A stretch of 64,000 nt of DNA, from assembly GCA_029260715.1 (NCBI GenBank), contig JAJDCS010000031.1, forward strand, positions 1 to 64,000. The letters are read 5' to 3'. How positions within the stretch are numbered: the stretch's first letter is position 1; each line of letters starts with the position of its first letter. Shown one piece after another: positions 36,556 to 55,902 of this stretch. The translations under genes and the position numbers were made by a program. The notes under the pieces were generated by a model. That model saw only the letters and a list, made by a program, of their open reading frames with translations, did not search any database and had not been told where the DNA came from. The stretch is from Phycisphaeraceae bacterium (GTDB lineage: Bacteria; Planctomycetota; Phycisphaerae; Phycisphaerales; Phycisphaeraceae).

Positions 36556-36633
36556 AGACGCCTAGGCTCAGTGTTGATTCTTCATAGCCAATGTTTCATG
36601 CTCAGATAGCACCATTAACGAAAGGACCCCTCC

Positions 36634-37128: not shown

Positions 37129-37233
37129 CTGGATGGCGTAGCAACCCACTCTTCTCTTGTCTGACCGGAGCTTTGTCGCCTTGGTCTCACACCGTTGAGA
37201 TGAGTGGGTTGTGATTTGGGAGTTCAACCAGTC

Positions 37234-37779
37234 ATGACCAGAACCATTGTTGGAATCATCCTGGGAGTCGCGCTAATGGCCGGCGCGTACGTTATGTTTA
37301 TAAGCAATTCCGCCGAGGCCGGCCCTTATGGCGGTGACCTTGTGTCGATCGCGGAAGGAGACGCCTACGCGGAACTGCTCGCCAATGCGGACACGGGTGA
37401 ACTCATGGTTCACACCTGGGACAAAGACCAGAAGACGGCGCGACCGATCAAGAGTGAACCGCTCACCGTTGGCAGCGCGGATAAGAGCGTTACGCTAGAA
37501 CCGCATCCGACATCCACCGATCCACCCGGCTACTGCAGCCGCTTCTATGGCCAGGCCGACTGGGTTCGTGGTGGCGGTGTGCGCCATGGTTGGTTACACG
37601 AGAGTGGCCATGCACAACACCGTCGAGAGTTTGACTGGAGCAGCGGGTGGAGAGGGGGCCGGAAACACGGATCGATGTGGAAACAAGTGGCTGAGCACAG
37701 AACGCCGGATGGCACCCATCGCGGTCCAGCGGGTAACAGCGGAAGTGGCCCTGGGCACCACGGCGGGCCACATCAATAG
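37234..37779 (+). CDS. Exported protein of unknown function
   Basis: 181 aa from ATG 37234 (a GTG at 37204 is possible). Signal/anchor (IVGIILGVALMAGAYVMF), then a small domain GGDLVSIAEGDAYAELLANA, GELMVHTWDKDQKTARPI and CSRFYGQADWVRGGGVRHGW. The C-terminal third is basic and rich in Gly/His (GHHGGPHQ). The compositional change along the protein raised the question of a frameshift, but the downstream part keeps the Gly-His character seen in such exported proteins, so I treat it as intact. It ends 14 bp before the redox gene. Confidence 0.65.
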   Translation: MTRTIVGIILGVALMAGAYVMFISNSAEAGPYGGDLVSIAEGDAYAELLANADTGELMVHTWDKDQKTARPIKSEPLTVGSADKSVTLEPHPTSTDPPGYCSRFYGQADWVRGGGVRHGWLHESGHAQHRREFDWSSGWRGGRKHGSMWKQVAEHRTPDGTHRGPAGNSGSGPGHHGGPHQ

Positions 37780-37793
37780 GCTACGGTGGTCAA

Positions 37794-39794: not shown

Positions 39795-39807
39795 TGCGGG
39801 GCTTGCC

Positions 39808-40554
39808 ATGAAAGAACGCGAACCCGTAATCGTTGGTGGCCTCGTCGCGCTGCTGCTGATCCTCTGGCTTGGATTTCCATTCCACCAGTCGCCAAGGTTT
39901 GCCGGAAGCTTTTGGGGTGGTGTTCTCGGGGTCACCGGCGCCGCCCTGATGTTGGTTCCGCTGTTATATCTTTTTGTAAAACGAATCATACCTCTCAAGC
40001 GGACCGTCACGAGACACGTCACGATGCGGACACTCCTGGCCTGGCATATCTACGCGGGCGTGCTGGGGCCGATCCTCGTCCTGCTCCACACCGGCCACAA
40101 ATTCGACAGCGTCTTGGGTATTACGCTGACAGCGATGGTGCTGCTCGTCGTTGTGAGCGGGTTCGTTGGGCGATACCTCATGAGCCGTATCAGCAAGGAC
40201 ATCAAGTCAAAGCGAGCCTTGCTCCTGGAAGCCAACACGCACTACGAATCAGCGTTAACCGAGCTTCGGGGCCAACCCGAACAGGCACGGCTGACCCGGC
40301 CATTTACCGGCTTCTTCACCCGGATGTTGATGACTGTGGAGCCGCTGGGCGAGACCTCCGTGCCCGGGGTTCGCGCGGTCCGACTTTCGGAATCGATCGC
40401 TGACCTTGAATACGCGATCCGCACGCACGAGGCTATCAAACGGGCGTTTTCAACATGGCTTCGGTTCCACATCGCGATCTCGTTTGCCCTTTACGCACTG
40501 CTCGCATTGCACATCTGGGGGGCGGTGTACTTCGGAATCAGGTGGTTCCAATGA
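39808..40554 (+). CDS. Membrane b-type haem-like protein (ferric-reductase/cyt b-like)
   Basis: About 248 aa from ATG 39808 (an in-frame ATG at 39793 overlaps the reductase stop). Four or five hydrophobic segments: IVGGLVALLLILWLGF, FWGGVLGVTGAALMLVPLLY, HIYAGVLGPILVLLHTGH, LTAMVLLVVVSGFVG and the C-terminal HIAISFALYALLALHIWGAV. Paired His residues in and at the ends of helices fit bis-His haem b. It sits 13 bp after the reductase and 40 bp before the multihaem cytochrome, so it probably carries electrons across the inner membrane. Confidence 0.75.
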   Translation: MKEREPVIVGGLVALLLILWLGFPFHQSPRFAGSFWGGVLGVTGAALMLVPLLYLFVKRIIPLKRTVTRHVTMRTLLAWHIYAGVLGPILVLLHTGHKFDSVLGITLTAMVLLVVVSGFVGRYLMSRISKDIKSKRALLLEANTHYESALTELRGQPEQARLTRPFTGFFTRMLMTVEPLGETSVPGVRAVRLSESIADLEYAIRTHEAIKRAFSTWLRFHIAISFALYALLALHIWGAVYFGIRWFQ

Positions 40555-40594
40555 ATGACCCGAAGCGACACTACTGTTGTGTGAGGTGGCAGAG

Positions 40595-41419
40595 ATGACA
40601 GAAAGCCACCGAATCAATCTGATCGGGCTGGTGTTGATCACGGCAGGCATTGCTGCCGTGATGGTCATCAGGTATCGCCTGAAGTCTCCTGAGCCGGATG
40701 CAAAGGTATGGGGCGTGAGCACCTGGCAGGCCATGGTCAGTCCGGGCGCTCTATCCGGGCCGCATGCATTTCTCGAAAACAACTGCAACGCCTGTCACAC
40801 GCCGATATCGGGGGTACAGGCGAGCAGCTGTATCGTCTGCCACGCTAACAACCACACGCTTCTACAACGCCAGCCCACCGCGTTTCACGCAGACATAAGC
40901 AGTTGTGTCCAGTGCCACCGTGAACACCAAGGGCCTTCCAAACGCCCAACTGAAATGGACCACTCCGCACTGACCGCGATTGGCCTGCAGCAACTTGAAA
41001 GCAACCCCGACCCCAATAGCGAAGACCGCATGACAGCGCAACAGCTGACCTACTGGCTTGGTGGTCAAAACACAGACCACCCGCCAGGTCACCCGGCCCT
41101 AACCGCGAATGAGATGGTCCTCGACTGCGCGGCCTGCCACAAAAACGACGACCGACACTTCGAGCTATTCGGTAACAACTGTGCCTCATGCCACGCCACG
41201 TCCGCATGGACGATCCCGCAATTCCGCCATCCACCCGCGGCGTCCATGGATTGTGCCCAATGCCATCAGGCTCCGCCCAGTCACTACATGATGCATTTCA
41301 AGATGATTTCCCAGAAAGTCGCAGGCCAGCCACACGCGAACGTCGAGCAGTGCTACAAATGCCACCAGACCACCTCGTGGCCGGACATCAAAGACGTAGG
41401 TTGGTACAAGCATCACTGA
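40595..41419 (+). CDS. Seven-haem membrane-anchored cytochrome c
   Basis: 274 aa from ATG 40595 with GAGGTGG upstream. N-terminal TM (INLIGLVLITAGIAAVMVI), then seven CxxCH haem sites: CNACH, CIVCH, CVQCH, CAACH, CASCH, CAQCH and CYKCH. Other His are available as distal ligands, as in cytochrome c3/NapC-like multihaem proteins. It is periplasmic and last of the three-gene redox unit. It would hand electrons to or take them from a periplasmic partner, perhaps a metal ion. Confidence 0.9.
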   Translation: MTESHRINLIGLVLITAGIAAVMVIRYRLKSPEPDAKVWGVSTWQAMVSPGALSGPHAFLENNCNACHTPISGVQASSCIVCHANNHTLLQRQPTAFHADISSCVQCHREHQGPSKRPTEMDHSALTAIGLQQLESNPDPNSEDRMTAQQLTYWLGGQNTDHPPGHPALTANEMVLDCAACHKNDDRHFELFGNNCASCHATSAWTIPQFRHPPAASMDCAQCHQAPPSHYMMHFKMISQKVAGQPHANVEQCYKCHQTTSWPDIKDVGWYKHH

Positions 41420-41662
41420 CCCCATTGGGCCGTGGAATAGGCAGCATAGTGATATGAAATTCGCACTTGGTATTTTGCGACTAACGGGCAACGCCGTGGT
41501 CATCTTTATAAGGGTAGTTGCGGGGAACGAAGACCAACAAAGCGACGGGGGCGATGGAGTTGATCCTGGTCGACTTCGAAAGACCACGATACAGAATTGG
41601 TCCGACGGACAGTACCTGCCGGTTAGGCCTGGATGGCTTGAACACGATGGTTAGGAGGCGAC

Positions 41663-41995
41663 ATGCACGAAACGATCATCCTATGGCTGGTCCGATTGAT
41701 TGAGCTCATCGCGGTGGTCATGATTGTTGCCGCCGCCCTGGTCGCCACCTCGCGCTTGATCTGGCGTCTGATCAAACAGCAGTACCGATTGGCAACGACC
41801 GATATCCGCTTGACCTTCGGACAGCATTTGGTCTTGGCCCTGGAGTTCATGATCGCTGCCGACATCCTCAAAACTGTTTTAACACCCACGCTAGACGACC
41901 TCGCCTTCCTCGGCGGCATCATCTTGATCCGAACCGTACTGACCGTAAGTATCGCCTATGAGGTGCGTCGATCGTCGAAAGGGATCGAAACGTGA
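41663..41995 (+). CDS. DUF1622 membrane protein
   Basis: 110 aa with a strong ribosome site (AGGAGG). Three TM segments with the DUF1622 features RLIWRLIKQQYRL, FGQHLVLALEFMIAADILKT and LGGIILIRTVLTVSIAYEV. Function unknown in the family. Its stop overlaps the GTG start of the HD-GYP gene by 4 bp, so the two are probably translated together. The 243 bp before it (41420-41662) hold no gene I can support. Confidence 0.85.
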   Translation: MHETIILWLVRLIELIAVVMIVAAALVATSRLIWRLIKQQYRLATTDIRLTFGQHLVLALEFMIAADILKTVLTPTLDDLAFLGGIILIRTVLTVSIAYEVRRSSKGIET

Positions 41996-42966
41996 ACTAC
42001 CGCGTGTTCATCGTTGGACTTCTCTTGTTGACCGTTGGCTTGTCGCACTGGCTCACACCGACCGATACCTACATCCTCCACGCGCTCCATGTCACGATGC
42101 GGAAGATGTTCCTCCTGCCCATCGTATTGGCGGCTATTTGGTTCGGACTCCGTGGTGCATGCCTTGCGGCCCTCGTAGCAACCGCCATCTATATCCCACA
42201 CGTGCTGGTTCAATGGCAGAGTCGGACAGCAGAGAATTTTAGCCAAGCCGGCGATACGGCTGTTTTGTGGGTGGTGGCTTTCATTGCGGGCTGGTTCGTA
42301 GACCAGGAGAGGTTAGCACAAGCGGTTGCTATGGATACGCGTCGTGGCGCCCTCTCAGCCCTGGTAACCGCCTTGGACGCGCGAGAATGCAATACGGAAC
42401 GCCATTCTCTGCGGGTCCGCGCCTATGCCCTGCGGATCGGACGCCAGATGAGGTTGCCGCAGAAGGTGATGGACGTCCTAGACCCCGCGTCGCTTCTTCA
42501 TGACGTTGGCAAGATAGGTGTGCCGGACCATGTCTTGCTGAAGCCCGGCCCACTTGACGACCGGGAGACGGCGATGATGCGGGCACACCCGGAGATCGGC
42601 TATCGCATCGTCCAGTCCGTACCACCCCTGAGAGAGGCTGCCGAGGCGGTTTATGCCCATCACGAGAAGTACGACGGCAGCGGCTACCCCAGGGGGTTGA
42701 TTGGAAAATCGACTCCGGTTGCCGCTCGCGTCTTTGCGGTTGCGGATGCATTCGACGCGCTGACGTCTAACCGTCCCTATCGTCAGGCTGTCGGTGTCGG
42801 CATGGCCCGAAAGGTAATCCAAGAGGAAAGGGGCCGGCAATTCGACCCCGCGGTAGTGGACGCGTTTCTTCGGGTCCCCCAGGGTGATTGGTCCCGGATC
42901 AGGCAAGGCGTCGAAGATGAATCAACCATCATTGAACTCCGAGCAGACCGAGTATCGTTGCATTAA
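41992..42966 (+). CDS. Membrane HD-GYP-domain phosphodiesterase
   Basis: 324 aa from GTG 41992. Several N-terminal TM segments (1-105), then an HD-GYP domain with LLHDVGKIGVPDHVLLKPG and HHEKYDGSGYPRGL, the metal-binding HD and the GYP motif intact. Expected activity is c-di-GMP hydrolysis, possibly sensed through the membrane part. No REC or PAS domain is visible. It overlaps the DUF1622 gene and is followed 47 bp later by the carotenoid-type gene; its link to metal resistance is not evident. Confidence 0.88.
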   Translation: MNYRVFIVGLLLLTVGLSHWLTPTDTYILHALHVTMRKMFLLPIVLAAIWFGLRGACLAALVATAIYIPHVLVQWQSRTAENFSQAGDTAVLWVVAFIAGWFVDQERLAQAVAMDTRRGALSALVTALDARECNTERHSLRVRAYALRIGRQMRLPQKVMDVLDPASLLHDVGKIGVPDHVLLKPGPLDDRETAMMRAHPEIGYRIVQSVPPLREAAEAVYAHHEKYDGSGYPRGLIGKSTPVAARVFAVADAFDALTSNRPYRQAVGVGMARKVIQEERGRQFDPAVVDAFLRVPQGDWSRIRQGVEDESTIIELRADRVSLH

Positions 42967-43013
42967 GGGAGGCAGTTTGCGTTAGCCACATTGTAAAAGA
43001 TCAAGACCCGGCC

Positions 43014-43796
43014 ATGATATCTGAACACTACGCTTGGCTGATCTGGTCGAGCAGCTTCCTGCTGCCGTGGCTGGCGCTCTACGGCTTTTACCCACGGCAC
43101 CGGCGAGCAATGGGATGGGCAAGCGTTTTTACGGCACCTTTTGGTCTAACTGAGCCGCTGTTTGTTCCTGAGTATTGGAATCCACCGAGCCTATTCGACC
43201 TTGCTCAGCGAACTGGGTTTGACGTGGAAAGCATTATCTTCTGCTTCGGCATCGGCGGGGTCTGTGCGGTTCTCTACAACATCCTGACCGGGCGAGTGGT
43301 CCGCCCCGTACCCGCGACGGAACGTGTGCACGGCCGACACCGATACCACCGTTTCATTCTGGCTTCACCTTTCGCGGCATTCGTTCTCCTTTATTGGTTG
43401 CCCTGGAATCCGATCTATCCGGGGATCATTGCGATGGGGGTTGGCGCGATTGCTGCCATGTGGTGTCGGCCAGACCTGACCCGAAAGTCGTGGATTGGGG
43501 GCATCCTTTTCCTGGGTTATTACATCGTTTTCTTGGTTGGCCTTCAGACCACCGTCCCCGGGTACATCGACCGCGTATGGAATCACGGTGCGCTGCTCGG
43601 CGTGTACGTGTTCGGTATGCCCATCGAGGAGCTGCTGTTCGCGTTCGCGTTCGGCCTCTATTGGTCGTCCGTCTACGAGCACTCCACCTGGAGACAAGTC
43701 GGTTCGGCCGCGATTATGGCGAGTGGGAACACCGCCCCCATTCGCGGCACCAATGAGGTATCGGGTTCCTCATGCAGCCAGGAGGCTCCTCAATGA
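43014..43796 (+). CDS. Lycopene cyclase domain membrane protein (CrtYcd-like)
   Basis: 260 aa with six or seven TM segments, the layout of fused CrtYc/CrtYd (CarR-type) lycopene cyclases. Two acidic motifs, LTEPLFVPEYW and MPIEELLFAFAFGLYW, match the conserved PxE(E/D) sites. The family makes cyclic carotenoids from lycopene. No other carotenoid genes are in the window, so it may act with host-encoded enzymes or have another membrane role. The stop overlaps the next start by 4 bp (ATGA). Confidence 0.85.
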   Translation: MISEHYAWLIWSSSFLLPWLALYGFYPRHRRAMGWASVFTAPFGLTEPLFVPEYWNPPSLFDLAQRTGFDVESIIFCFGIGGVCAVLYNILTGRVVRPVPATERVHGRHRYHRFILASPFAAFVLLYWLPWNPIYPGIIAMGVGAIAAMWCRPDLTRKSWIGGILFLGYYIVFLVGLQTTVPGYIDRVWNHGALLGVYVFGMPIEELLFAFAFGLYWSSVYEHSTWRQVGSAAIMASGNTAPIRGTNEVSGSSCSQEAPQ

Positions 43797-43999
43797 GTCA
43801 TCACTTCAAGATGCTGTTGGGATGCCTGCTGCCATTACTGGTGATCGTCTCGCTGCCGGTGTTCGGCGTCAGTGATACGGTAACCGTCTTCATCTTTATC
43901 GTCCTCATGTTCTTCTGCCACCTTGGAATGATGAGAGGACACCTTAAACACGGTTCACACCACAACGACAACTCATCAACAAGGAGAACACCACAATGA
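43793..43999 (+). CDS. Small membrane protein, DUF2933-like
   Basis: 68 aa from ATG 43793, overlapping the cyclase stop, with GGAGG upstream. It has a two-segment hydrophobic core (MLLGCLLPLLVIVSLPVFG; VFIFIVLMFFCHLGMM) and a His/Asn tail (GHLKHGSHHNDNSS). Small His-ended proteins of this form (DUF2933-like) are common in metal-resistance clusters. The stop overlaps the next start by 4 bp. Function unknown. Confidence 0.7.
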   Translation: MSHHFKMLLGCLLPLLVIVSLPVFGVSDTVTVFIFIVLMFFCHLGMMRGHLKHGSHHNDNSSTRRTPQ

Positions 44000-44274
44000 A
44001 CAAACTTAGCGTCAAAGGAACAAGCTGTGCACTGGGCGTGAGCGGCGCCGCACTGTATATCGGCTGTGTCTTTATCATGCTCACGGCTCCCAAAGAGGCG
44101 GTCGTGCGGTTCTTCAACAGTCTTCTGCACGGCTGGGATGTCACGGCGATCATGCGCTGGGACATGCCCTGGTGGGAAGCCGTCATTGGGGTATTCGAGA
44201 TATTCATCCTCGGTTGGCTGGTGGGGGCGCTGTTCGCGGTGATCTACAACCTGGCCACCACAACGAAGGGATAG
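43996..44274 (+). CDS. DUF5676-type membrane protein
   Basis: 92 aa from ATG 43996. Two TM segments (ALGVSGAALYIGCVFIML; GVFEIFILGWLVGALFAVIYN) with the intervening HGWDVTAIMRWDMPWWEA that marks this family. Unknown function; usually next to small DUF2933-like and methyltransferase genes in metal loci, as here. Gap of 3 bp to the next gene. Confidence 0.8.
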   Translation: MNKLSVKGTSCALGVSGAALYIGCVFIMLTAPKEAVVRFFNSLLHGWDVTAIMRWDMPWWEAVIGVFEIFILGWLVGALFAVIYNLATTTKG

Positions 44275-44277
44275 ACC

Positions 44278-44898
44278 ATGCACGGTGAGGGTTACGCCTA
44301 TGGCAGTTGGGGCATCGTCATCACGATGGTGCTCATCAGCCTGTTCTTCATCTTCAAGTTCATCCCGATGCGCACCAGGCTCGGGAAGCGTTCAGGCGGT
44401 GCGCTGATTGCCTTCATTGTCGCTCTATTTGCCGAGATGTACGGGTTCCCGCTGACCATATACCTGCTGTCGCACTTCGTGGGTATCGAGATCCCCTTTA
44501 ACCACATCAGCGGTCACCTGTTGGGGGACCTCATCACCTATCTCAAACTCGGCAATGGATGGTTTATCGTGATGCTGGTCAGCAACGTGCTGCTCGTCAT
44601 CGGCATCTGGGTCGTCAGCGCCGGTTGGGAGCTTGTGTACAAGTCCGAGGGCAAGCTGGTGACCCATGGTGTATACGCTTATATCCGTCACCCACAATAC
44701 ACCGGGATCTTTATTATTACCTTGGCCTTTATGATCCAGTGGCCGACACTGGCCACGCTTGTTCTCTGGCCCTTTGTCATCGCGATGTACGTCAGGCTTG
44801 CTAAACAAGAGGAGAAAGACGTGACCCAACAGTTCCCCGAGGAGTACCGCGAGTACATGCAGCGCACACCGAGGTTCTTCCCGAAATTAATTCAGTAA
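44278..44898 (+). CDS. ICMT/PEMT-family membrane methyltransferase-like protein
   Basis: 206 aa. About five TM segments and the C-terminal SAM-binding signature of isoprenylcysteine/phospholipid methyltransferases: GVYAYIRHPQYTGIFIITLAF, and KQEEKDVTQQFPEEYREYMQRTPRFFP. The bacterial substrate is unknown. It ends the tight run 43014-44898, and a strong hairpin follows 66 bp downstream. Confidence 0.87.
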   Translation: MHGEGYAYGSWGIVITMVLISLFFIFKFIPMRTRLGKRSGGALIAFIVALFAEMYGFPLTIYLLSHFVGIEIPFNHISGHLLGDLITYLKLGNGWFIVMLVSNVLLVIGIWVVSAGWELVYKSEGKLVTHGVYAYIRHPQYTGIFIITLAFMIQWPTLATLVLWPFVIAMYVRLAKQEEKDVTQQFPEEYREYMQRTPRFFPKLIQ

Positions 44899-45370: not shown

Positions 45371-46102
45371 GTGCGATACAAGCGGGTGATGGTCAAACTA
45401 AGCGGTGGGGCCCTGGCCGGTAGCGAGTCGTCGGGGTTTGACCCCCATTGCCTCGACCATATCGCGACCGAGCTGCTGAAACTCCACGGCATGGGGGTTC
45501 AGCTCGGGGTCGTCGTCGGTGGCGGCAACATCTTCCGGGGCAAGCTCGGGCACCAGTGGGGCATCGAACAGGTCGAAGCCGACAACATCGGGATGATGGC
45601 GACGGTCGCCAACAGCCTCATGCTCCGCGGCGTGCTCAAGGCCCGCGGTGATGCTGAAGTGCGGGTGATGACCGCTATCCCCATCAACAACATCGCCGAG
45701 CCGTTTATCCGACTGAGGGCCATCAACCACCTCAAGAAAGACCGCATCGTGGTCTTCGCGGCCGGCACCGGCAATCCCTACGTGACTACCGACTACGCAG
45801 CGGTCCAGCGGGCTTTGGAAATTAGTGCCGAGGCCGTGCTCTCAGCGAAACAAGGCGTGGATGGCGTCTACACCGCCGACCCGCAAGCCGACGCGAGTGC
45901 AAAACGATATCGGAAGGTCTGCTACGACACGGTGCTTGAAAAGAACCTGCAGGCGCTCGACCCCGCAGCAGTGATGCTGGCCAGGCAGCACGGCCTGCCG
46001 GTTCATGTGTTTGGTTTCGACGAGCCGGAAGCCATGGGTCGAATCTGCGGCGGTGAGGATCTGGGGACGTTGATCCAGCAAGACAGCGATGAGTTCGCTT
46101 AG
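45371..46102 (+). CDS. pyrH: UMP kinase
   Basis: 243 aa from GTG 45371 (GGAAGGAA upstream). Full-length PyrH: N-terminal YKRVMVKLSGGAL, GGGNIFRG, NIGMMATVANSLMLR, GTGNPYVTTDYAAVQRALE, KQGVDGVYTADPQ and the C-terminal part. It phosphorylates UMP to UDP with ATP; normally an essential single-copy chromosomal gene next to tsf/frr, which are absent here. It stands alone between a repeat and the mercury operon. Key residues look intact, so an active second copy is plausible. How sure: family certain, reason for presence unknown. Confidence 0.93.
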   Translation: MRYKRVMVKLSGGALAGSESSGFDPHCLDHIATELLKLHGMGVQLGVVVGGGNIFRGKLGHQWGIEQVEADNIGMMATVANSLMLRGVLKARGDAEVRVMTAIPINNIAEPFIRLRAINHLKKDRIVVFAAGTGNPYVTTDYAAVQRALEISAEAVLSAKQGVDGVYTADPQADASAKRYRKVCYDTVLEKNLQALDPAAVMLARQHGLPVHVFGFDEPEAMGRICGGEDLGTLIQQDSDEFA

Positions 46103-46275
46103 AAAACACCGCCTGAGAATTTGATTTACTGGCCTGTTGCCTTGTCCCGCTGGCTTCTGGAGGCCGAGAGCGGGGGGGGCAGAGACCAAGATCCTTCCAA
46201 ATAGAGGTGCCCACACGTTTCAAGATAGAAGCCAGCGTGTGGGGTAGAGATAGCTGCTTACGCTTTACTTTGTGT

Positions 46276-47109
46276 TCAGAACTGAATCCTCAAGCTGACT
46301 ACGACCGTGAAATCCGTCTCCAGTCTCGGTGCTTTCAAGTCCTGATGCACCGGAAGCTGAATTCCCGCCTCAAGGATGACGTTCGAAGTGATGAACTGGA
46401 GACCGGGCGACAGAAATACCTGTGTGCTTCCATCCGCGACATACGTCGAATTGAGTTCCGCGACCGCATACAGCCCCCACGGACCGCTATCTGATGCCTG
46501 GTTGCTCCATAGCCGATGCGAGTAAGCAGAATCGAACCGCAACTCGTCATCACCGTCCGGGCCACCCGCGGTGTTGAATTTGTAGAGCACATCCCAATCG
46601 ACCCACCAGTCGAGCTCTTGATGTGTCCACACCGTCCCAATGATGGGGTCTAGGCTTTCACTGGAGAACGATTCATCATAGGTGGGAATCTCAGCCCCAC
46701 CGATGACGGCCCACCGGGTGGTGCGGCCAAACTCATCATCTTGGTAAAAGCGGTATTTAGCCAGGATGGGGATGTCGCCAACACCGGTGTCGTTGGCTGT
46801 CGCCCCCGAAGCAAAATCCAACTCGCGGTGCACGATAGGAACCGTTCCCAAGATGGCTAGATTTTCCGAGAGCCCATGCACCACGGTGATGGGCTGAATG
46901 CTGAGCTTTACCGTTCGGCCCAGGGGAGTACTGTCGCCGGAGAGTTCACTGTACCGCCACTGGGCACGCACGATGGTTCCACCGGATGGTGGCGTTAGAG
47001 CCACATCGGTGTTCAGACCTGCCCCGTGTGCTGGCTCTTGTGTGCTTACTAGGGTGGCAAGTACTAGTAATGGCCATATGGCGAACGAATATGTTGAGAA
47101 TCTGGTCAT
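46276..47109 (-). CDS. Outer-membrane beta-barrel protein (last gene of mer-like operon)
   Basis: 277 aa. Signal peptide (LLVLATLVSTQEPAHG), then alternating beta-type segments (GTIVRAQWRYSELSG, VHGLSENLAILGTVPIVHRE, GDIPILAKYRFYQDD, WAVIGGAEIPTY, VLYKFNT) and a C-terminal VVSLRIQF with the terminal Phe of outer-membrane barrels. It resembles the transporter-like barrels often annotated as putative outer-membrane channels. Start overlaps the NHL gene stop by 4 bp. Role with the mercury genes unknown; it may pass or hold the metal. Confidence 0.78.
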   Translation of the reverse strand: MTRFSTYSFAIWPLLVLATLVSTQEPAHGAGLNTDVALTPPSGGTIVRAQWRYSELSGDSTPLGRTVKLSIQPITVVHGLSENLAILGTVPIVHRELDFASGATANDTGVGDIPILAKYRFYQDDEFGRTTRWAVIGGAEIPTYDESFSSESLDPIIGTVWTHQELDWWVDWDVLYKFNTAGGPDGDDELRFDSAYSHRLWSNQASDSGPWGLYAVAELNSTYVADGSTQVFLSPGLQFITSNVILEAGIQLPVHQDLKAPRLETDFTVVVSLRIQF

Positions 47110-48086
47110 CGCTGTCCACCGGTTTTCTGTAGTTGTTGGTCTCTTGGCGTTGACATTTTCAACCGCAGCAGGCGGTTGCTGCCGTAATCGACCACATACA
47201 GTTCGCCGGTCCTCGTATCGATGCTCAGGTCGGTCGGATTGTGCAGATGACCATCGACCTTATCCAAACCTGTCCAGACCATGACACGTTCCGGATGACC
47301 GTCAGACGGCACGGTAAACCGCTGCAATCTGTTGTTAAAGAAATCTGCAACCCAGACCCGGCCTTCCACATCAAATGCGACCCCTCCCGGTACGCTGAAT
47401 TGGCCTTCTCCGTCTCCCTCGCTACCGATGATGTGAAGCAGAGTTCCTTCGGGGTCGTACACCTTGAGCCGGTGGTTGTAGGCGTCGGTGACCCAAAGGT
47501 TACCACCGGGTCCCGTGGTGATTCGTGTTGGGTAGTAGAACTCCTTTGCCCCGTGGCCCTCTTTGCCCCAGGTCTTGAGCAAATGTCCGGACGAATCCAA
47601 CTTCACAACCCGACAGCCATTAAACTCAACCACGTACACAAGGCCGTCTTGGTCCACCGTGACATCCGCCGGACCTGTGTACCGAACGCCATTGCCAAAC
47701 GACGACCACTCGCCCCCTGCGCCACTTGCTGAGAGGACCTGCACTCGGTCATTCAGGTAATCAGCCACGTAGATACGGCCGTCGCTACCCGTAGCCACTC
47801 CGAGCGGACGTCGGAATTGCCCGGGTTGCTCTCCCTCTCCACCCCCCCACACGGCCCGTGTATCACCGCAGTCGCTTAGCCACACAACCCGGTTGTTGCC
47901 ACTGTCGGCCACAAGAACACCGCCGCGGGGGTGTAGAGCTATTCCGACTGGCTGTTGAATCCCGACGTCACGAGCCCAGGTAAGTTCGATTGGTTTGACT
48001 GTCGGCATGAGAGCGTGGCAGCCACCAAGCAATCCTGTCAGAAGAAGGGCCATAGGCCATGTTGTCAGTCGGATGAGTTTACTCAT
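47106..48086 (-). CDS. NHL-repeat beta-propeller lipoprotein
   Basis: 326 aa. Lipobox LGGC (LLTGLLGGCHAL). Six NHL blades, each with a pattern such as GVLVADSGNNRVVWLSDCG, GRIYVADYLNDRVQVLSA, GNLWVTDAYNHRLKVYDP, GRVWVADFFNNRLQRF and GELYVVDYGSNRLLRL, so a complete six-bladed propeller in the periplasm or on the outer membrane. NHL domains bind proteins or ligands; no catalytic residues seen. It overlaps both neighbours by 4 bp. Confidence 0.88.
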   Translation of the reverse strand: MSKLIRLTTWPMALLLTGLLGGCHALMPTVKPIELTWARDVGIQQPVGIALHPRGGVLVADSGNNRVVWLSDCGDTRAVWGGGEGEQPGQFRRPLGVATGSDGRIYVADYLNDRVQVLSASGAGGEWSSFGNGVRYTGPADVTVDQDGLVYVVEFNGCRVVKLDSSGHLLKTWGKEGHGAKEFYYPTRITTGPGGNLWVTDAYNHRLKVYDPEGTLLHIIGSEGDGEGQFSVPGGVAFDVEGRVWVADFFNNRLQRFTVPSDGHPERVMVWTGLDKVDGHLHNPTDLSIDTRTGELYVVDYGSNRLLRLKMSTPRDQQLQKTGGQR

Positions 48087-48433
48087 GGCATCTCCACCCT
48101 ATCCACCGTAAATCCGCTTTCTTTGACGGCCTTGCGTAGCTGTTCTTCGCTCGGTGGTTGCCCTTTAGAAAGGGCAACAGTGACCCGTCCCGTCTCCAGC
48201 GTCACGTCGACGCTTTTGACGCCCGGCACTTTCCTCAACTGACGCTCTACGTTGTAAGTACAGAACGGACAGGCGAGGCCCTTAACCCAAAGGACAACCG
48301 CCGGTTCTTCATTAGCCGAGGAGTTCAAGCTAACTGTGCAGGGTGGCTCCTGTGTTGCCAGTGGGACCTGGCAACCCAACAACGACGCCACAACAAAGAA
48401 CGTCATGGCCATGATGGACCTCTTCATAATCAT
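48083..48433 (-). CDS. HMA-domain lipoprotein (MerP-like)
   Basis: 116 aa. Signal with lipobox LLGC. The mature protein is one heavy-metal-associated domain: VKGLACPFCTYNVERQLRKV, GVKSVDVTLETGRVTVAL, AVKESGFTVDRV. The CxxC (CPFC) is intact, so it can bind Hg(II) or another soft metal on the periplasmic side. Unlike soluble MerP it is lipid-anchored. It is placed between the fused transporter and the NHL gene. Confidence 0.87.
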   Translation of the reverse strand: MIMKRSIMAMTFFVVASLLGCQVPLATQEPPCTVSLNSSANEEPAVVLWVKGLACPFCTYNVERQLRKVPGVKSVDVTLETGRVTVALSKGQPPSEEQLRKAVKESGFTVDRVEMP

Positions 48434-48498
48434 TACCTCAATCTGACCTCTGGGGATTGTTCAGCGGCACAATCCCTAAAGCCATCGGACACCAAACC

Positions 48499-49503
48499 CT
48501 ACAGTTGGTTCATCTCACCAGTAACCTTGTATCCCGCTTGTTTGACCGCCTCGACAAGCGATTCTCGTGAAGGTGGTGAGGAGGCATCGATGTTAACCGT
48601 CGCTTGGCCTTCCGAATAGGAGACCGATGCGTTCTTAACACCCGGTACCTTCACCAACTCGCTCTGAATGTGCGTTGCACAGGATTCGCATGTCATCCCT
48701 TCAATGTGAAGAGTAACGGCAACCGTATTGACATAAGTGGTACCGCTATCAGCCGTCGCTGTGCTACCGATAAAATACCCCGCATAGTTTGGGAAGAACG
48801 AGAAGCCGACAACTGCAACCGTTGCCAACCAGAACATCACACGGTTAAACCGCCGAAGTTTTGGATTCGGCACGGCACACACCGAGCCTGGTTCACAGAC
48901 AGGTTGTCGTAGGTATATGAGGTAGAACCCCGCACAGAGAAGAACCGCGGCAACCACGAGGAACAGTGGACGCCAATTGGCAAACCAAGAGGACACGCCA
49001 CCGGCTGAAAGCCCGAACGCAATGAGAAGTAACGGCAACCAGCAGCAGGCAGACGCGACCACCGCCGACACTACTGAGCCACCTGTAGCAACGAGGCCAG
49101 CACGGTCAGTCAGGTTATGTGACGTGTTGCCATCCTCTGATGTTTGAGGCTCAGAGCAGCAATTAGAGCCACTGCCACAACATCCCGCTCCGGATGTCGG
49201 CCCAGGGTCTTTCCCCGTTACCGCACCAATCAACATTGCCCGGGGAGGTACACCTTCAGTGCCATACATCCGGCACGAAAACGCATAATCCGTTCGGCTA
49301 TGAGCTTCAGGTTCGATATCCACGCCATCAACCTGGATGGTAGGGGAGCCAAAGAAGTGAAGCCGCTCGGCGTCGGCCTGCGTTTTGACCTCCACCTCTT
49401 CGACCACGGTATCGACTCCAAGCTCGGCAACGACGCTCCGAGCCATATCGACCGCTGGCTGATGATTTGGGCAGCCCTCAAAATAGAGCACTTGAATCTT
49501 CAT
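48499..49503 (-). CDS. Mercury transporter fusion: thioredoxin-like + MerT + MerP domains
   Basis: 334 aa, three parts. (1) Residues 1-85, a thioredoxin-like fold with Cys in FEGCPNH (11), followed by a Cys-rich linker (GAGCCGSGSNCC, 106-116). (2) MerT-like membrane part: CC pair in TM1 (ASACCWLPLLLIAFG, 153/154) and the loop pair CEPGSVCAVPN (203/209), both MerT hallmarks. (3) C-terminal MerP/HMA domain GMTCESC (272/275). It imports Hg(II) into the cytosol or hands it on. Controlled by the MerR-type promoter immediately upstream. Confidence 0.92.
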   Translation of the reverse strand: MKIQVLYFEGCPNHQPAVDMARSVVAELGVDTVVEEVEVKTQADAERLHFFGSPTIQVDGVDIEPEAHSRTDYAFSCRMYGTEGVPPRAMLIGAVTGKDPGPTSGAGCCGSGSNCCSEPQTSEDGNTSHNLTDRAGLVATGGSVVSAVVASACCWLPLLLIAFGLSAGGVSSWFANWRPLFLVVAAVLLCAGFYLIYLRQPVCEPGSVCAVPNPKLRRFNRVMFWLATVAVVGFSFFPNYAGYFIGSTATADSGTTYVNTVAVTLHIEGMTCESCATHIQSELVKVPGVKNASVSYSEGQATVNIDASSPPSRESLVEAVKQAGYKVTGEMNQL

Positions 49504-49587
49504 GGCTCGACCCTTTCATGTATGCGTCACTGGATACCGGCGGCTGAGAACGTCCTCAGCCTAAAAGCCTTGGTCCATCTATCATGA

Positions 49588-49619
49588 AGCATACACCTTG
49601 AACCCAGGTTCAAGGTCAA
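49588..49619 (-). promoter_or_regulatory. MerR-type promoter of the mer operon
   Basis: On the minus strand, -35 TTGACC (49619-49614), 20-bp spacer, -10 TATGCT (49593-49588). The overlong spacer is what MerR-family activators correct by twisting DNA. The transcript runs towards the fusion gene at 49503. Confidence 0.7.
49595..49616. promoter_or_regulatory. MerR operator, perfect 10-2-10 palindrome
   Basis: ACCTTGAACC (49595-49604), CA, GGTTCAAGGT (49607-49616), lying between the -35 and -10 boxes as in all MerR-family operators. The sequence differs from the GTAC-centred site of Tn501/Tn21 mer. Confidence 0.78.
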
Positions 49620-49627
49620 GCGATATG

Positions 49628-50059
49628 TCAAGATTTCTTTTTGCGGCGTCGAGATGTCTTGGTTGTGAGGGAATCGAGGACCTCACAGCGGCCGCTTCGT
49701 TCGGCCTCGCGGCAAACCTCAAGGGATGATTGGAGCACCCGCTGAACCCGGCGGAGGTTTTTCATACACACCGCCGCATCGGCAAGCCGTTCTTGGATGA
49801 GCTCCTGCACCTCCTGACAAGGAGCAGTGCTCCCATCACGTAGCTCAACTAGTGTCTGCACGTCCTGAAGGCGAAACCCGATTGATTGGGCCGAACGGAT
49901 GAATTGGACTTGCTCAAGAGCGCCCTCGTCGTAGTAGCGATAGTTGCCCGCTGTGCGGCCAGCCGGTCGTACCAGGCCGATTCGCTCGTAATAACGCAGC
50001 GTCGAAGTCGGAACCTCCGCCGCTTGGGCGAGTTCGCCAATGGTGAAGTGCTTGGGCAT
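49628..50059 (-). CDS. merR: MerR mercury-responsive regulator
   Basis: 143 aa. N-terminal HTH (TIGELAQAAEVPTSTLRYYE), long coiled-coil dimer helix, and Cys at 81, 116 and 125. The spacing 35 and 9 is the same as the Hg(II)-binding Cys 82/117/126 of Tn501 MerR, strong support for mercury as the inducer. A fourth Cys is at 98. Basic C-terminus (SRRRKKKS). It is upstream of and codirectional with the operon it controls, ending 8 bp before the -35 box. Confidence 0.93.
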   Translation of the reverse strand: MPKHFTIGELAQAAEVPTSTLRYYERIGLVRPAGRTAGNYRYYDEGALEQVQFIRSAQSIGFRLQDVQTLVELRDGSTAPCQEVQELIQERLADAAVCMKNLRRVQRVLQSSLEVCREAERSGRCEVLDSLTTKTSRRRKKKS

Positions 50060-50064
50060 AACTC

Positions 50065-50094
50065 ATCGTACTACGAGATTGAAGCTGAGTTCAA
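50065..50094 (-). promoter_or_regulatory. Predicted merR promoter with second operator-like site
   Basis: -35 TTGAAC (50094-50089), 18-bp spacer, -10 TACGAT (50070-50065), just upstream of the merR ATG at 50059. The -35 box lies in TTGAA-N6-TTCAA (50079-50094), the same inner half-sites as the mer operator, so MerR may bind and regulate its own gene. Confidence 0.5.
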
Positions 50095-50350
50095 TGTTTG
50101 TGAGTCCGAGGACGGATTTGCTCACTCATCAGATGCCCGTCTGGTTTTGGATAACTCCTTATATACAAAGGATCGTCTGCCCACCCTGCCGATGATATTT
50201 AGAGTAGCACGATGTACATTAAGAAACGTGAAAACCCGCCTCTCATCTTAGGCCACGACTCCACCTAGTCGCCGTAGCCAAGCGGCCTCCTAGCGACAGA
50301 ATAACTCGTCCCCCCTATGTCCGGTCACAACCCATGACTCGAACGGGCCC

Positions 50351-51694
50351 TTAATGAATCAAACCAGCCGCAGCTAACACGGCTGAGGCCGGGACGGGGT
50401 CAACCTGAGTTCTTCTATGAGCTGACCCCATGGGACTGCATAATTCGATTGTCCTCATAGAAGCGCGACTCATGCATGACGACCCGTCCAAGCGACGCCC
50501 CGTGGCGGTGAGCGTGGTTGCTCTGGTTTTCCTTGAACGCCTAGATGGGAGGCCCTGAGTATGCGTCAGTGCCTTAAGACGATTCCTCGCGCCATCTTCG
50601 TCTCGCTGTGTGATGAAGTGCCACAGCTGCCGACGGACCAGTGTGGCAAACAGGCCGCACGGGTTTCGGGTTGCCACACACCGCGCCCGCTCTGCAGCAC
50701 CGAAGAACCTTAGCCGGTCGCATTCGGAATTCATGACCAGGCCCTCCCGCTGCGCCTGCCTGAATAATTCGGTTAACCGCTGAGGGTCGGAGAGATCGGC
50801 CGGCTGAAGGTCGCGAAGCGATGGCGTGCCCTGCTTTTCAGTTTTCTTCCAAACACCAGTCCTCGGCCGGCGTGTGGCGGGTTCTTGGTTTTTAGATCTC
50901 GTAGAGAGTTCTTGGTTGTTTATAAGGGGTGGTAAACCGGTTGTGGAAAGCCGTTCAGGGGGTGGTGCTTTGAGTTCTTGATTCAGTCTCGGTGCTGATG
51001 ACCAATCCAGGTTGATCGTGAACGAGACCCCCCAGCGGTTGAGCCTGCCCTGTGGCGTGGGTTGGAGAACAAGCCATCCTAAATCGACCAGCTGTTTACG
51101 GGCGGCCTTGATGTTGCGCAGGTCGACGTCGAACACCGCGGCGACCCAGGACGCCTTGCAGGTACCCCCGGCAACGCACTGGCCGTTCCGGTAGTAGAGG
51201 CCCCGCAGGAGGTGGCCGAGGACCGTCGCGGCCTTTGCCCGCGTTGTCCCCATTGCGAGCATGCGTAGAACCCGTCGCGGGACCGGCACCCTGCGTCGCG
51301 TGTTCTGCACGAGGGTGAGTTTGACCTCCAACAGTTGCCAAAACCACTCCGGTTGCTTCGACGTATCCACGGTGAGGTCGAGACCGGTCTCTTGCCACAC
51401 CAGCAAGCCGGCGCCCTCAAGCCGCCGGACCGATTTGCGTAGATGCTCGCCCCCCACACCGCCGACCAGCCCGTGAAGCTCCTCGGCGGTGTACCGAGGC
51501 CGCTGGCCTTTCCCAAGCGCGCATCGCCTCGCCCTGAGTTCGTGGCACGCTAGCCAGACTCTTAGATCGAAGAGCCTGATGATGTTCTGCCTGTATGCCG
51601 TATAGGTGGCTACGAGCGCCGTTGCGTTGATGAAGCAATACCCGCCCGCGGGTTTGCGCGCCGACTGAGCGGTTCTTTGGATTGTCCGATACAT
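50351..51694 (-). CDS. Winged-helix protein, probable plasmid replication initiator
   Basis: About 447 aa from ATG 51694 (an ATG at 51751 is in frame). The N-terminal half looks like two winged-helix units: YTAEELHGLVGGVGGEHLRK / SVRRLEGAGLLVWQETGL, and ASWVAAVFDVDLRNIKAARK / QLVDLGWLVLQPTPQGRL. The second half is basic, low complexity and includes a helical stretch (LTELFRQAQREGLVM; ERARCVATRNPCGLFATLVR). No catalytic motif. Its position, divergent from parA across a 0.6-kb control region, suggests a replication initiator, but I do not recognise a Rep family. Confidence 0.6.
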   Translation of the reverse strand: MYRTIQRTAQSARKPAGGYCFINATALVATYTAYRQNIIRLFDLRVWLACHELRARRCALGKGQRPRYTAEELHGLVGGVGGEHLRKSVRRLEGAGLLVWQETGLDLTVDTSKQPEWFWQLLEVKLTLVQNTRRRVPVPRRVLRMLAMGTTRAKAATVLGHLLRGLYYRNGQCVAGGTCKASWVAAVFDVDLRNIKAARKQLVDLGWLVLQPTPQGRLNRWGVSFTINLDWSSAPRLNQELKAPPPERLSTTGLPPLINNQELSTRSKNQEPATRRPRTGVWKKTEKQGTPSLRDLQPADLSDPQRLTELFRQAQREGLVMNSECDRLRFFGAAERARCVATRNPCGLFATLVRRQLWHFITQRDEDGARNRLKALTHTQGLPSRRSRKTRATTLTATGRRLDGSSCMSRASMRTIELCSPMGSAHRRTQVDPVPASAVLAAAGLIH

Positions 51695-51925: not shown

Positions 51926-52371
51926 TGTTTCCTCATTTAGTTGCTGCCCAAATCCGTTCTCCTCTTTGGATGTCTCACTTCTTTCAAAGGCCGCAAAAGT
52001 CCCGAGCCAGACTCAATACGCCCGGCCGCGGCCTCTTTGCTCAAACCCTAGCGAAGCAACGGGAAACCTGACAAGCAAAATCTCCTCCCCCGGACCCCCG
52101 GCCGGCCCGCCCACGGGAGGACCGGCGGGCGGGCTCCACCGCCAACATGCCGGCCCAACATCCCGCACGCCCGCGAGCGAGCCATTGGGCCGACGTGCAC
52201 CTGAAACATTTCCATTGCGCGTCTTCTTTGCTCTGCGATAGAACGGGAAAGCGGGCAGGCCGTTGGGCCCGGCTGCCCTTGAACGGGGGAGCGGGCGAGC
52301 CGGCTTGCGGGGCAACCCGCGTCGGGGGACTCAAGAAAGAAACACAAGAACCCATCGGAGCACGAAGGACT

Positions 52372-53283
52372 ATGAACCAAGCAAAACCACTGGGCATCAC
52401 GATCGCGGTAGGGAACCAGAAAGGCGGAGTCGGCAAGACCACCAACTCGATCCATCTCGCGGCCGCTCTCGGTCTGCGCGGCTACCGATGCCTGGTCATC
52501 GACCTCGACCCGGCCGCCGGAGCTACCAAGCACCTGGGCATCCCCGTCAACAGCTTTGCAGGGTCGCTGGAGCTGATGAGTACTGATGAATCGGTCGAGA
52601 ACCTGGTCGTGAGCGACAACATGCCGACCGGGGTCCACCTGGTCCCGTCTAGGCCTCAGCTCTCAGAGCTGGACAGCCTGCTGTCGAAGTTTGCGGACCG
52701 GACCAAGACCCTTGACCGGCCGATGGCCCGCGCCAGGCAGGTGTACGACTTCATCTTCCTGGACACGGCGCCTTCCGCGGCGGCCATCACCACCGTCGCG
52801 GCGTATTCCACAGCTGATTGGTTCATGCTTTCGGCGTTCCCGCACCCACTGTCATTAGCGGGCCTGAACGAGGCCCTTCGCGACATCGCGGACGTGCGCA
52901 AGCACCGCAACCCCAACCTGGAAATCCTCGGCGTGGTCTTTGCCAACGTCGACGGGCGAGCCACCCGGCTTCGGTCTCAGCTGGAGACAGTGGTCCAAGA
53001 GGTGCTGCCGGGGCGCCAGTTCGAGACCTCGATCTCTCAGGCGGTCATCGTCCCACAGACATCGGGGCAGGGGACGACGCTGTTTCAGTTGGACAACTAC
53101 ACCGATATAGGCGTCGCGATGCAATACCTACGCCTATCCGCGGAGGTCGAACACCGAGTCACCCACCGCGAACCGTTCCTGGCCGGACGGCTCGGCCCGG
53201 TCGACTTCGAGAACATGCTCGCATCACTGAAAGCCGCAGGCGAGCGTGACATCGAACCCATGTTGAACGCTGTAAACGGTTAG
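52372..53283 (+). CDS. parA: ParA-family partition ATPase
   Basis: 303 aa from ATG 52372 (GAAGGA upstream); the frame opens further left but that part has the composition of non-coding DNA. Deviant Walker A QKGGVGKTTNS at about residue 17-27, then LVIDLDPAAGATKHLG (A') and YDFIFLDTAPSAA (Walker B). It drives segregation of the plasmid or element. It has no N-terminal DNA-binding domain, so a small partner is expected; the next gene, 9 bp on, is the candidate. Confidence 0.93.
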   Translation: MNQAKPLGITIAVGNQKGGVGKTTNSIHLAAALGLRGYRCLVIDLDPAAGATKHLGIPVNSFAGSLELMSTDESVENLVVSDNMPTGVHLVPSRPQLSELDSLLSKFADRTKTLDRPMARARQVYDFIFLDTAPSAAAITTVAAYSTADWFMLSAFPHPLSLAGLNEALRDIADVRKHRNPNLEILGVVFANVDGRATRLRSQLETVVQEVLPGRQFETSISQAVIVPQTSGQGTTLFQLDNYTDIGVAMQYLRLSAEVEHRVTHREPFLAGRLGPVDFENMLASLKAAGERDIEPMLNAVNG

Positions 53284-53292
53284 AGAGGAGTC

Positions 53293-53823
53293 ATGGCCAA
53301 ACCGCTTCACGAACCCCTGCCTAGCAGCTCGATCGCGAGACTCTTGGACCGCACAGCGGCGGCCCGTGCAACCGCCCCGCCATCGTCAGCGCCTCTGGTA
53401 TTGCACGCCGCCACTTCTTCAACTCGCCCAGATGACGTGCCCCAGCCTTTGGCCCGGGTGGACGAGACGCCCGCTTGTACCAAGCGAGAGTTCACACTCT
53501 GCTCCCACACGGACGACGTCTTCAGTCAGTTGGCCGACATCTACCGCCGTACGACACGGACCCGGTTGAGCAACAGCCACGTGATGCGAGCTCTATTGAG
53601 AGGCGTTGCCCATTGCTTGGACGGCTTGGAACTGGAGGCCCACAAGCAGCTGGTTCCGCAGAAGCTGCCCAGTAACGCCAGAGGAAGGCAAGAGGAGCGG
53701 GCCCGCTTCGAGGAACGGCTGGCTCGCGTGCTGATCGCCGGCATTCGCGCCGCTTCATCCGACGAGGACCACGACCCGATCCTTGCCGCCAGCGGTGAGA
53801 GCCCACAGATTCCTCGTCAGTAA
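53293..53823 (+). CDS. Small probable ParA partner with ribbon-helix-helix-like region
   Basis: 176 aa; AGAGGAG upstream. N-terminal part Ser/Ala/Pro-rich and probably disordered; middle KREFTLCSHTDDVFSQLADI then TRLSNSHVMRALLRGVAHCL looks like a beta-strand plus two helices as in RHH (CopG-type) proteins; a charged helical C-terminus follows. Located right after parA, it is a natural centromere-binding partner. No sequence match recognised. Its end overlaps the convergent trbI end by 7 bp. Confidence 0.6.
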   Translation: MAKPLHEPLPSSSIARLLDRTAAARATAPPSSAPLVLHAATSSTRPDDVPQPLARVDETPACTKREFTLCSHTDDVFSQLADIYRRTTRTRLSNSHVMRALLRGVAHCLDGLELEAHKQLVPQKLPSNARGRQEERARFEERLARVLIAGIRAASSDEDHDPILAASGESPQIPRQ

Positions 53824-54893
53824 GGCGCAAGGACCATGTCCTTGTTGACCAAGACATTCACGACCGTCCCCTGGGCCAGCTTGATCGTCGGCCTCACGCT
53901 CAACTCCCGCTCCACGATGCGCTGCCCGACCCTTGACGACTCTTGGGCCACCGTGTCACCGACGACGTCGCTGTAGCTACGCTCACCATCGGAGCTGCGG
54001 GCGAGGTTGCCGCCAAAGGCCAGGACCGTGCTGAGCAAGACCCCACCGATGAGCCTGTCATAGTGGTGATCGACGGTGCCCTCGAGCCCGGTCTGACCGG
54101 AACCGTCCACACCGGCCATTCCCTGTAGCTCGATCGACCGCCCGTCCGGCATCACCAGCCGCTGCCAGACCACCAACGCGCGGTCCTGCCCGTTCTCGAC
54201 CACGTCGTCGTACGCGCCGTACAGAACCGCGCCGGCCGGGACCAGGACGTGCCGCCCGGTCAGGGTGTCCATCACTGGCTCGGTGACCCGGGCGACAATG
54301 TCGCCCGGCAGGTCACTGTTGACCGCCGTGACCAGCGCCGCGGGTATGACCGAGCCCGCCGTCAGCGTAAACGGTGACCGTGTTGGCCGGTAAGGCTGAT
54401 CCAGGTACGGGGTGACACCACTGAGCGCGGATGTGAACGGCGTCGACTCGGGGTCGGCCGTTATTTCTTGCAGCGCCGTGCCGGCCGTGGCACCGGCCGT
54501 GGGTGGCAGAGGGACGTCGAAGAAGATCGCGGCCGTCCGCGCCGACTCTGATTCGGCAAACAGCTCTTTGGCCAGTTCGAAGTTGATGTCCGGCGTCGGA
54601 AGCATCGGTGCAGCTCGTTCAACGACGGGTTCCGTTGGTGCAAAGGGAATATCGCTGTAGCGCTGCGGCAGCGCTTGGACCGACGATGGTGGCGACGAAC
54701 TGTAGAGGTTGGTGTGATCTGATTGCGAGTCCCTCGAACGCTCCGCGTTGCGGACACCGGCGAAGAATGCCAGGGTAACGGTCGCCGCCAGAAGGGCCAC
54801 GGCGAGCACCACCATCCTAGGCTTGAGGCCGCCGCCCAGAGGCGGCCTGGGGTGCAGGTCGAGGATGTCGTGAGGGTTCTGTTTCGGTTGCAT
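53817..54893 (-). CDS. trbI: TrbI/VirB10-family conjugation protein
   Basis: 358 aa from ATG 54893; a longer frame to 55043 overlaps trbG and is not used. N-terminal cytosolic Pro-rich tail, one TM (MVVLAVALLAATVTLAFF, about 27-44), Pro/Ser linker, and the conserved C-terminal domain (AGSVIPAALVTAVNSDLPGD; VLVPAGAVLYGAY; GTVNVLVNKDMVLAPY). It spans the envelope and gates the T4SS core complex with TrbG and TrbF. Last gene of the leftward trb operon. Confidence 0.93.
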   Translation of the reverse strand: MQPKQNPHDILDLHPRPPLGGGLKPRMVVLAVALLAATVTLAFFAGVRNAERSRDSQSDHTNLYSSSPPSSVQALPQRYSDIPFAPTEPVVERAAPMLPTPDINFELAKELFAESESARTAAIFFDVPLPPTAGATAGTALQEITADPESTPFTSALSGVTPYLDQPYRPTRSPFTLTAGSVIPAALVTAVNSDLPGDIVARVTEPVMDTLTGRHVLVPAGAVLYGAYDDVVENGQDRALVVWQRLVMPDGRSIELQGMAGVDGSGQTGLEGTVDHHYDRLIGGVLLSTVLAFGGNLARSSDGERSYSDVVGDTVAQESSRVGQRIVERELSVRPTIKLAQGTVVNVLVNKDMVLAPY

Positions 54894-54945
54894 CGGTTTC
54901 GGCTCTGGCCTTCGTTCATCGAATACCCGTGCATGCAAACGGGTG

Positions 54946-55902
54946 TTACCGGGCAATTCGTTCGACTCCAACGGAGGTGCCGCCGAGCAGGAGCACCATC
55001 CGGTCAACCACCTTGTCCAGGATGTAGAAGTCGTCTCGGACACGGTAATTCACAACGATACGGCGCCCACTCAGACCCTTGGCGTAGACCAGGGGCGACA
55101 CCTTGTTGCCGCGGGGGAACTGGATGTAGGTCTTGTTCCCGTCGTTGAAGACGTGCACCGGCGCCCATTTGGGCATCCAACGCCCCTCCAACAGTTTGAC
55201 CCTGTAGTTGAAGTCCGCTTGGTCGAGTTGGACTGGTGCGAGGGAGTCTTCCACCTTCGGTGACTTCGAATGATCAGGCGCCACGAAACGCAGCATCGAC
55301 TCGTTGGGGTATCGCCACGCCACGGTCGCGTTGTACACGCCTTCCGGGACGCTCTTGAGTCCGACCTGGTACACCCGCTGGTTGGTGGTCAGCACCAGGT
55401 TCGTCTGTATCCACGGCCGCAGCGGCTTGACCAGGACCAGCGTCTGGGCGGGTCGCGTGCCGGTCGTCGTCTGCGAGACCTCCCAGCGCGCCGTGTCGCC
55501 CGCGGCGATCGAGGTCAGCTGCTCGCCCGGCTTCAGGGCCAGCGTGGTGATGAACACGGGCGAGGCGACGACCTCGTAGATCTGACCGGGCAGGTAGTCG
55601 TAGAACTGGGTCGACAGGACAAAGTCGTCGGCCGACGACCGGTTGGTCGCATCCTCGTTGGACTCCTGAATCGCTTCGAGGGCTTCCTGGGGGTTTTCTT
55701 CTTGTGCCGGGTCCGTCGTCCGCTCGGGCAGTTTCATCTGCTTGGGCTTGAGCGGTGGGATCGGGGCCTTCGCGACAGGTGGATCGATCTTTCGGTCTAC
55801 CGCGCTAAATTCGTAGGCATAATTCCAGTCACGATCCCAGAGAGAACACCCCGACATTGGGAGAACACACACGGCCAACACGAGAATAGGGGTTATGCGC
55901 AT
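54946..55902 (-). CDS. trbG: TrbG/VirB9-family outer-membrane core lipoprotein
   Basis: 318 aa from ATG 55902, chosen because AAAGG is 8 bp upstream; the ATG at 55908 is too close. Lipobox MSGC. VirB9 features: IYEVVASPVFITTLALKPGE, TLVLVKPLRPWIQTNLVLTT, and the C-terminal domain WAPVHVFNDGNKTYIQFPRG and VNYRVRDDFYILDKVVDRMV. Interacts with TrbI. The Lys/Pro stretch after the lipobox may be the TrbH/VirB7-like replacement, as no separate lipoprotein gene is seen. Confidence 0.92.
   Translation of the reverse strand: MRITPILVLAVCVLPMSGCSLWDRDWNYAYEFSAVDRKIDPPVAKAPIPPLKPKQMKLPERTTDPAQEENPQEALEAIQESNEDATNRSSADDFVLSTQFYDYLPGQIYEVVASPVFITTLALKPGEQLTSIAAGDTARWEVSQTTTGTRPAQTLVLVKPLRPWIQTNLVLTTNQRVYQVGLKSVPEGVYNATVAWRYPNESMLRFVAPDHSKSPKVEDSLAPVQLDQADFNYRVKLLEGRWMPKWAPVHVFNDGNKTYIQFPRGNKVSPLVYAKGLSGRRIVVNYRVRDDFYILDKVVDRMVLLLGGTSVGVERIAR

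Follow-up and report, generated by a model that had tools for sequence, protein, structure and literature searches.

A putatively MerR-controlled operon joining a thioredoxin-like/MerT/MerP fusion to a putative outer-membrane metal module in a planctomycete genome without a recognised mercuric reductase

We analysed a stretch of 64,000 nucleotides from a Phycisphaeraceae bacterium (contig JAJDCS010000031.1, hereafter the window), which belongs to a Planctomycetota genome assembly of 3.32 Mb in 44 contigs that is 96.5% complete. Five ORFs on the minus strand, in the order MerR regulator, thioredoxin-like/MerT/MerP fusion, HMA lipoprotein, NHL lipoprotein and barrel, were confirmed as a preliminary description of this DNA had given them (Table 1). 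The HMA and NHL ORFs, and likewise the NHL and barrel ORFs, overlap by exactly 4 bp, and because of these overlaps the three genes are probably translationally coupled; the gap between the fusion and the HMA gene is 65 bp. The intergenic region upstream of the fusion carries a 20-bp spacer, within the 19-20 bp of mer promoters, and their dyad, and an identical 32-bp promoter is present in another locus (L077). No ordinary promoter with a 16-18 bp spacer was found in a scan of positions 46000-50400.

Table 1. Features of the operon in the window.
Feature	Coordinates	Strand	Evidence
MerR-family regulator, Cys81/Cys116/Cys125 triad	49628..50059	-	Pfam MerR_1 + MerR-DNA-bind; triad alignment
Operator/promoter TTGACC-TTGAACCTGGGTTCAAGGTG-TATGCT, 20-bp spacer, perfect dyad CCTTGAACCtgGGTTCAAGG	49588..49619	-	MerR-type, merR/fusion intergenic
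Fusion, thioredoxin-like DF + MerT + MerP/HMA	48499..49503	-	Pfam, NCBIfam, Cys ligands, low-confidence model
HMA lipoprotein, lipobox Cys21, metal motif GLACPFC	48083..48433	-	Pfam HMA 42.7 bits; lipobox
NHL beta-propeller lipoprotein, lipobox Cys23	47106..48086	-	Pfam NHL 139.6 bits, six repeats; relatives L032, L194, L148
Outer-membrane barrel, 12 strands, FapF/COG4313 channel fold, C-terminal Phe	46276..47109	-	AlphaFold2, fold comparison

The fusion protein consists of a thioredoxin-like DF domain (residues ~1-95), a MerT part (142-238) and a MerP/HMA part (264-326). Pfam recognises MerT (52.5 bits), HMA (58.6 bits) and, weakly, Thioredoxin_3; NCBIfam assigns the N-terminal domain, at 115 bits, to the DF (seleno)protein family, and its MerTP_fusion model scores 105 bits, under the cut-off of 180. 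The MerT ligands are intact (Cys153-Cys154 and Cys203-x5-Cys209), and the MerP part has the GMTCxxC motif of mer operons as GMTCESC (Cys272/275). In the AlphaFold model, which is poor (pLDDT 61.8), three long helices can be made out besides an alpha/beta domain and an HMA-like domain. A second merR-fusion copy lies on another contig of the same genome (C40), behind a recombinase-like ORF and without the envelope genes, and its fusion is 83% identical. According to record titles, the nearest relative, whose fusion is 82% identical, comes from Phycisphaeraceae, and most of the remaining ones are from Planctomycetota. In two loci (L032:9584-11098 and L107:9539-10762), a CopZ-type zinc domain (zf_CopZ) replaces the thioredoxin-like domain at the N-terminus of a MerT-MerP fusion.

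The lipoboxes of the HMA and NHL proteins read LLGC and LGGC, respectively, and neither protein has Asp at +2, which would place both lipoproteins in the outer membrane. The barrel is predicted with confidence (AlphaFold2 pLDDT 87.7), and its nearest solved folds are FapF (5o65, Z 23.8) and a COG4313 channel (4rl8, Z 23.0); the copper barrel PcoB (7pge, Z 15.2) is more distant. The predicted structure thus shares the 12-stranded fold of the COG4313/Phenol_MetA_deg channels and FapF, and PF13557 (Phenol_MetA_deg) matches 7/17 members of the barrel family (best E 4.4e-17); unlike those channels, the window barrel has an HMA lipoprotein as a partner and itself gives no match in Pfam. PcoB is likewise an outer-membrane metal-resistance barrel of similar fold, but its structural match is weaker, no sequence relation to it was found, and the partner in the window is the HMA lipoprotein. 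In a related locus (L033:8274-8681, G278:C8), the barrel-adjoining HMA protein has an in-frame TGA within its metal motif (CPFU) and therefore probably represents the HMA lipoprotein in selenoprotein form.

The preliminary description had reported neither reductase nor lyase, and this holds for the genome as a whole: no protein exceeds the TIGR02053 cut-off for MerA (best 295 vs 454 bits), and no MerB (PF03243) was found. Identical searches were positive in relatives, among them G555, which served as a positive control for MerB. The idea that merA lies just outside the operon or elsewhere fared less well and is rejected for the assembled genome, where the three best MerA matches are dihydrolipoamide dehydrogenase/transhydrogenase-like proteins without the C-terminal Cys pair; since the assembly is 96.5% complete, a MerA encoded beyond the assembled sequence is conceivable. 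The genome also has none of the MerA-like oxidoreductases of 380-400 bits that are known from its relatives. Among 32 Planctomycetota genomes with a MerT part, MerA above the cut-off is found in four (G220, G206, G084 and G238) and is absent from 28, three of which (G024, G048 and G105) are single-contig assemblies with a listed completeness of 99%. By these searches, MerTP without MerA is the rule among the sampled Planctomycetota. The 80 named loci retrieved with the MerTP query hold at least 12 MerA with an SCC tail, at least eight barrels and at least two MerB, the counts being lower bounds because the flanks extend up to 10 kb. These genomes often encode MerA-like oxidoreductases of about 387-407 bits that have no CC tail and end in WRR (L213, L214, L215 and L216), and that of L216 adjoins MerTP; such proteins are possible alternative partners.

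We found barrel matches in 44 of 294 genomes of the phylum and in 98 of 301 genomes of the order, the latter under a stricter limit (E 1e-8). An HMA protein is encoded within 3.5 kb of the barrel in 40/45 loci, against an expectation of ~1% estimated from five HMA matches in 3.3 Mb, and this recurrence across genomes rejects the explanation of chance neighbours. There are 33 same-strand HMA-barrel neighbours (duplicates counted), and 15 of them may overlap by 4 bp. The window barrel falls into a five-member clade with support 100/98 (window, G220, G519, G555 and L107/G352), and all five members sit in MerR+MerT loci. The complete HMA, NHL and barrel triad is present in four loci and its gene order varies: besides the window, G555 has MerR, DF, a MerB-MerT-MerP fusion, HMA, NHL and barrel without MerA; G220 has MerR, NHL-HMA-barrel, MerR, MerTP and MerA; and the Krumholzibacteriota locus L148 has HMA-barrel-NHL, MerR and MerT. 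That the membership is kept while the order is shuffled argues for a joint function. The MerB domain of G555 (114 bits) retains both the WCALD and the FCCHVHF motif. MerB-MerT-MerP triple fusions also occur in two Planctomycetota loci (L194:4382-5806 and L100:9356-10885), with no CC-tailed MerA in the fetched stretch.

The module is not confined to operons of this form. In G206, HMA and barrel stand beside merA without NHL, and the MerA proteins of G220 and G206 are true ones with an SCCA tail. L081 and L107 lack NHL but have MerR, HMA, barrel and MerTP; a Vibrio diabolicus plasmid carries a MerR-like gene, GDCCVxC, HMA and barrel without MerT and NHL; and HMA+barrel also occurs in Verrucomicrobiota, again without NHL. 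NHL as an obligatory part is therefore rejected, as it is found in four mer loci and is absent from L081, L107, L195 and others. An order-wide NHL search returned just three loci of the order, those behind its model, which shows the subfamily to be rare. A module exclusive to mercury is also rejected, since the HMA+barrel pair of L034 adjoins copper genes, with an outer-membrane efflux protein and also a multicopper oxidase encoded next to it. Because of this copper setting, HMA+barrel looks, from its gene neighbourhoods, like a general outer-membrane metal module recruited by mer operons. The search for recurrence and merA linkage suggested in the preliminary description thus yielded the triad in three further mer loci, one of them merA-linked (G220). 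The module does recur in mer loci, but its proposed tie to the lack of merA does not hold, because G220 and G206 have both; MerA is present in 2/11 MerT-linked barrel loci, a small number of cases, and is about as rare in MerTP loci generally. Small Cys-rich peptides, probably secreted, are encoded between MerR and the HMA or MerTP gene in four loci (L081:3113-3346, L099:6442-6762, L162:13000-13215 and L196:6781-7149) and have repeats like DCPGKxxCPxTGExxCKDRCP; that of L081 has no match in NCBIfam.

The operon resembles the classical mer operon (Tn501/Tn21 merRTPA) in its MerR-type regulator and promoter, the CC and C-x5-C of MerT and the CxxC domain of MerP. It differs in that MerA is missing from operon and genome, and in the added thioredoxin-like domain of the fusion, HMA lipoprotein, NHL lipoprotein and barrel. 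The mer functions tabulated in the accessible part of Boyd and Barkay 2012 (PMC3466566) include neither NHL nor barrel nor any outer-membrane part, in keeping with the earlier remark that NHL and barrel are not standard mer parts. MerB without MerA is described as common and unexplained in the available portion of Christakis et al. 2021 (PMC8261052), whose table there has one Planctomycetes entry. Such genomes also have mercury genes minus the reductase, and the G555 operon combines MerB-MerT-MerP with the triad and no MerA; the portion of PMC8261052 just cited proposes non-mer reduction and sulfur chemistry with no outer-membrane module, whereas the window genome has no MerB. The literature searched, with subscription journals mostly outside it, held no description of the HMA+NHL+barrel triad and nothing relevant on NHL or propeller proteins with mer operons. 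The recurrence of the outer-membrane set beside mercury genes in other bacteria suggests an undescribed envelope handling of mercury.

We tentatively favour, at a little under even chances, the reading that this is a mercury-response operon that deals with Hg(II) at the envelope, either sequestering it or releasing it outwards, without mercuric reductase. It is favoured because no reductase was found, with the same searches positive in relatives, and because the HMA+barrel pair occurs in a detoxification setting, namely beside the efflux protein and multicopper oxidase of L034. The well-supported barrel clade, all of it in MerR+MerT loci, the triad in differing gene orders and the intact MerT and MerP ligands point the same way, and mercury as the metal is supported by the MerA neighbours and by the fusion with MerB. 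Metal-loaded MerR would activate the 20-bp-spacer promoter. MerP/MerT would then pass Hg(II) from thiol to thiol through the inner membrane to the fused cytosolic thioredoxin-like domain or, alternatively, exchange it at the inner membrane. In the outer-membrane set, the CPFC motif of the HMA lipoprotein would bind Hg(II), which would be handed to the barrel or held near it, and the metal, instead of being reduced, would stay sequestered at the envelope or leave the cell. HMA, NHL and barrel would be in physical contact, and the direction would be outward. A stricter form, in which the three proteins are a dedicated outer-membrane route that replaces MerA and expels Hg(II), including that freed by MerB in G555, over thiols and unreduced, is rather doubtful. 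Several observations weigh against envelope disposal: most mer-linked HMA+barrel loci lack NHL, the MerR triad suits Pb and Hg alike, and a MerA could lie in the unassembled remainder. In addition, the MerT of known systems acts as an importer, an awkward fit with export.

That importer role speaks for an inward route. Here Hg(II) would be caught at the outer membrane by the HMA lipoprotein together with the barrel and supplied to MerP/MerT, after which cytosolic thiols would bind the metal or an unrecognised reductase would handle it, merA having been lost. The module beside MerTP and true MerA in G220 and G206, where inward feeding makes sense, speaks for this route and against disposal at the envelope. 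The import of Hg without reduction, however, sensitises E. coli, MerA above the cut-off is absent from most MerTP-bearing Planctomycetota genomes, and the window genome is without even the MerA-like oxidoreductases of its relatives; we consider the inward route unlikely.

The metal itself may be questioned. The MerR cysteines have the C-x34-C-x8-C spacing of mer operons and align with the triads of the MerR structures 4ua1 and 5crl, so that the Tn501-type triad of the preliminary description stands; they align equally with 5gpe, which is listed in the database as a MerR-family regulator and nothing more specific, and which we take to be the lead sensor PbrR691. Because 5gpe carries the same triad, the triad is, on this alignment, non-specific for mercury and fits Pb too. 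The NCBIfam scores are also close (ZntR-type 105 bits, MerR 103 bits, both under the cut-off). These results, together with the copper genes next to the L034 pair and the metal-type genes, among them a multicopper oxidase, that the window holds at 33-45 kb, would suit an operon of reused mer parts that senses another soft metal (Pb, Cu or Cd). Such an operon is quite unlikely in view of the canonical MerT cysteines and of the MerB and MerA loci within the nearest barrel clade, features of sister loci and MerT sequence that favour Hg as the metal that we infer for the operon. A passive periplasmic sponge, in which HMA proteins bind Hg without transport and barrel and propeller serve as anchors or otherwise, accords with the optional NHL and with the lack of an energy source or inner-membrane exporter linked to the HMA+barrel pair, but a barrel with a channel fold would be an unusual anchor, and the barrel is almost always paired with HMA, which makes the sponge improbable.

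How mer-bearing bacteria that are MerA-less or MerB-only dispose of Hg(II) is the question that this defined, recurring gene set addresses, and the triad is a testable candidate for how they cope. If the module exports or traps Hg(II), genome-based predictions of mercury volatilisation change, as mer-positive organisms would keep Hg oxidised.

Further genes of copper or other metal type lie at 33048-44898 of the window (multicopper oxidase, FAD/2Fe-2S oxidoreductase, multihaem cytochrome c, DUF5676 and an isoprenylcysteine methyltransferase-like protein). On the other side of the operon, positions 52147-55043 hold a ParA-like ORF, recognised by eye, and a TrbI conjugation gene, and the GC content climbs from ~0.57 to 0.63 near 52 kb; because of these genes and this shift, the mer operon looks as if it adjoins a conjugative element.
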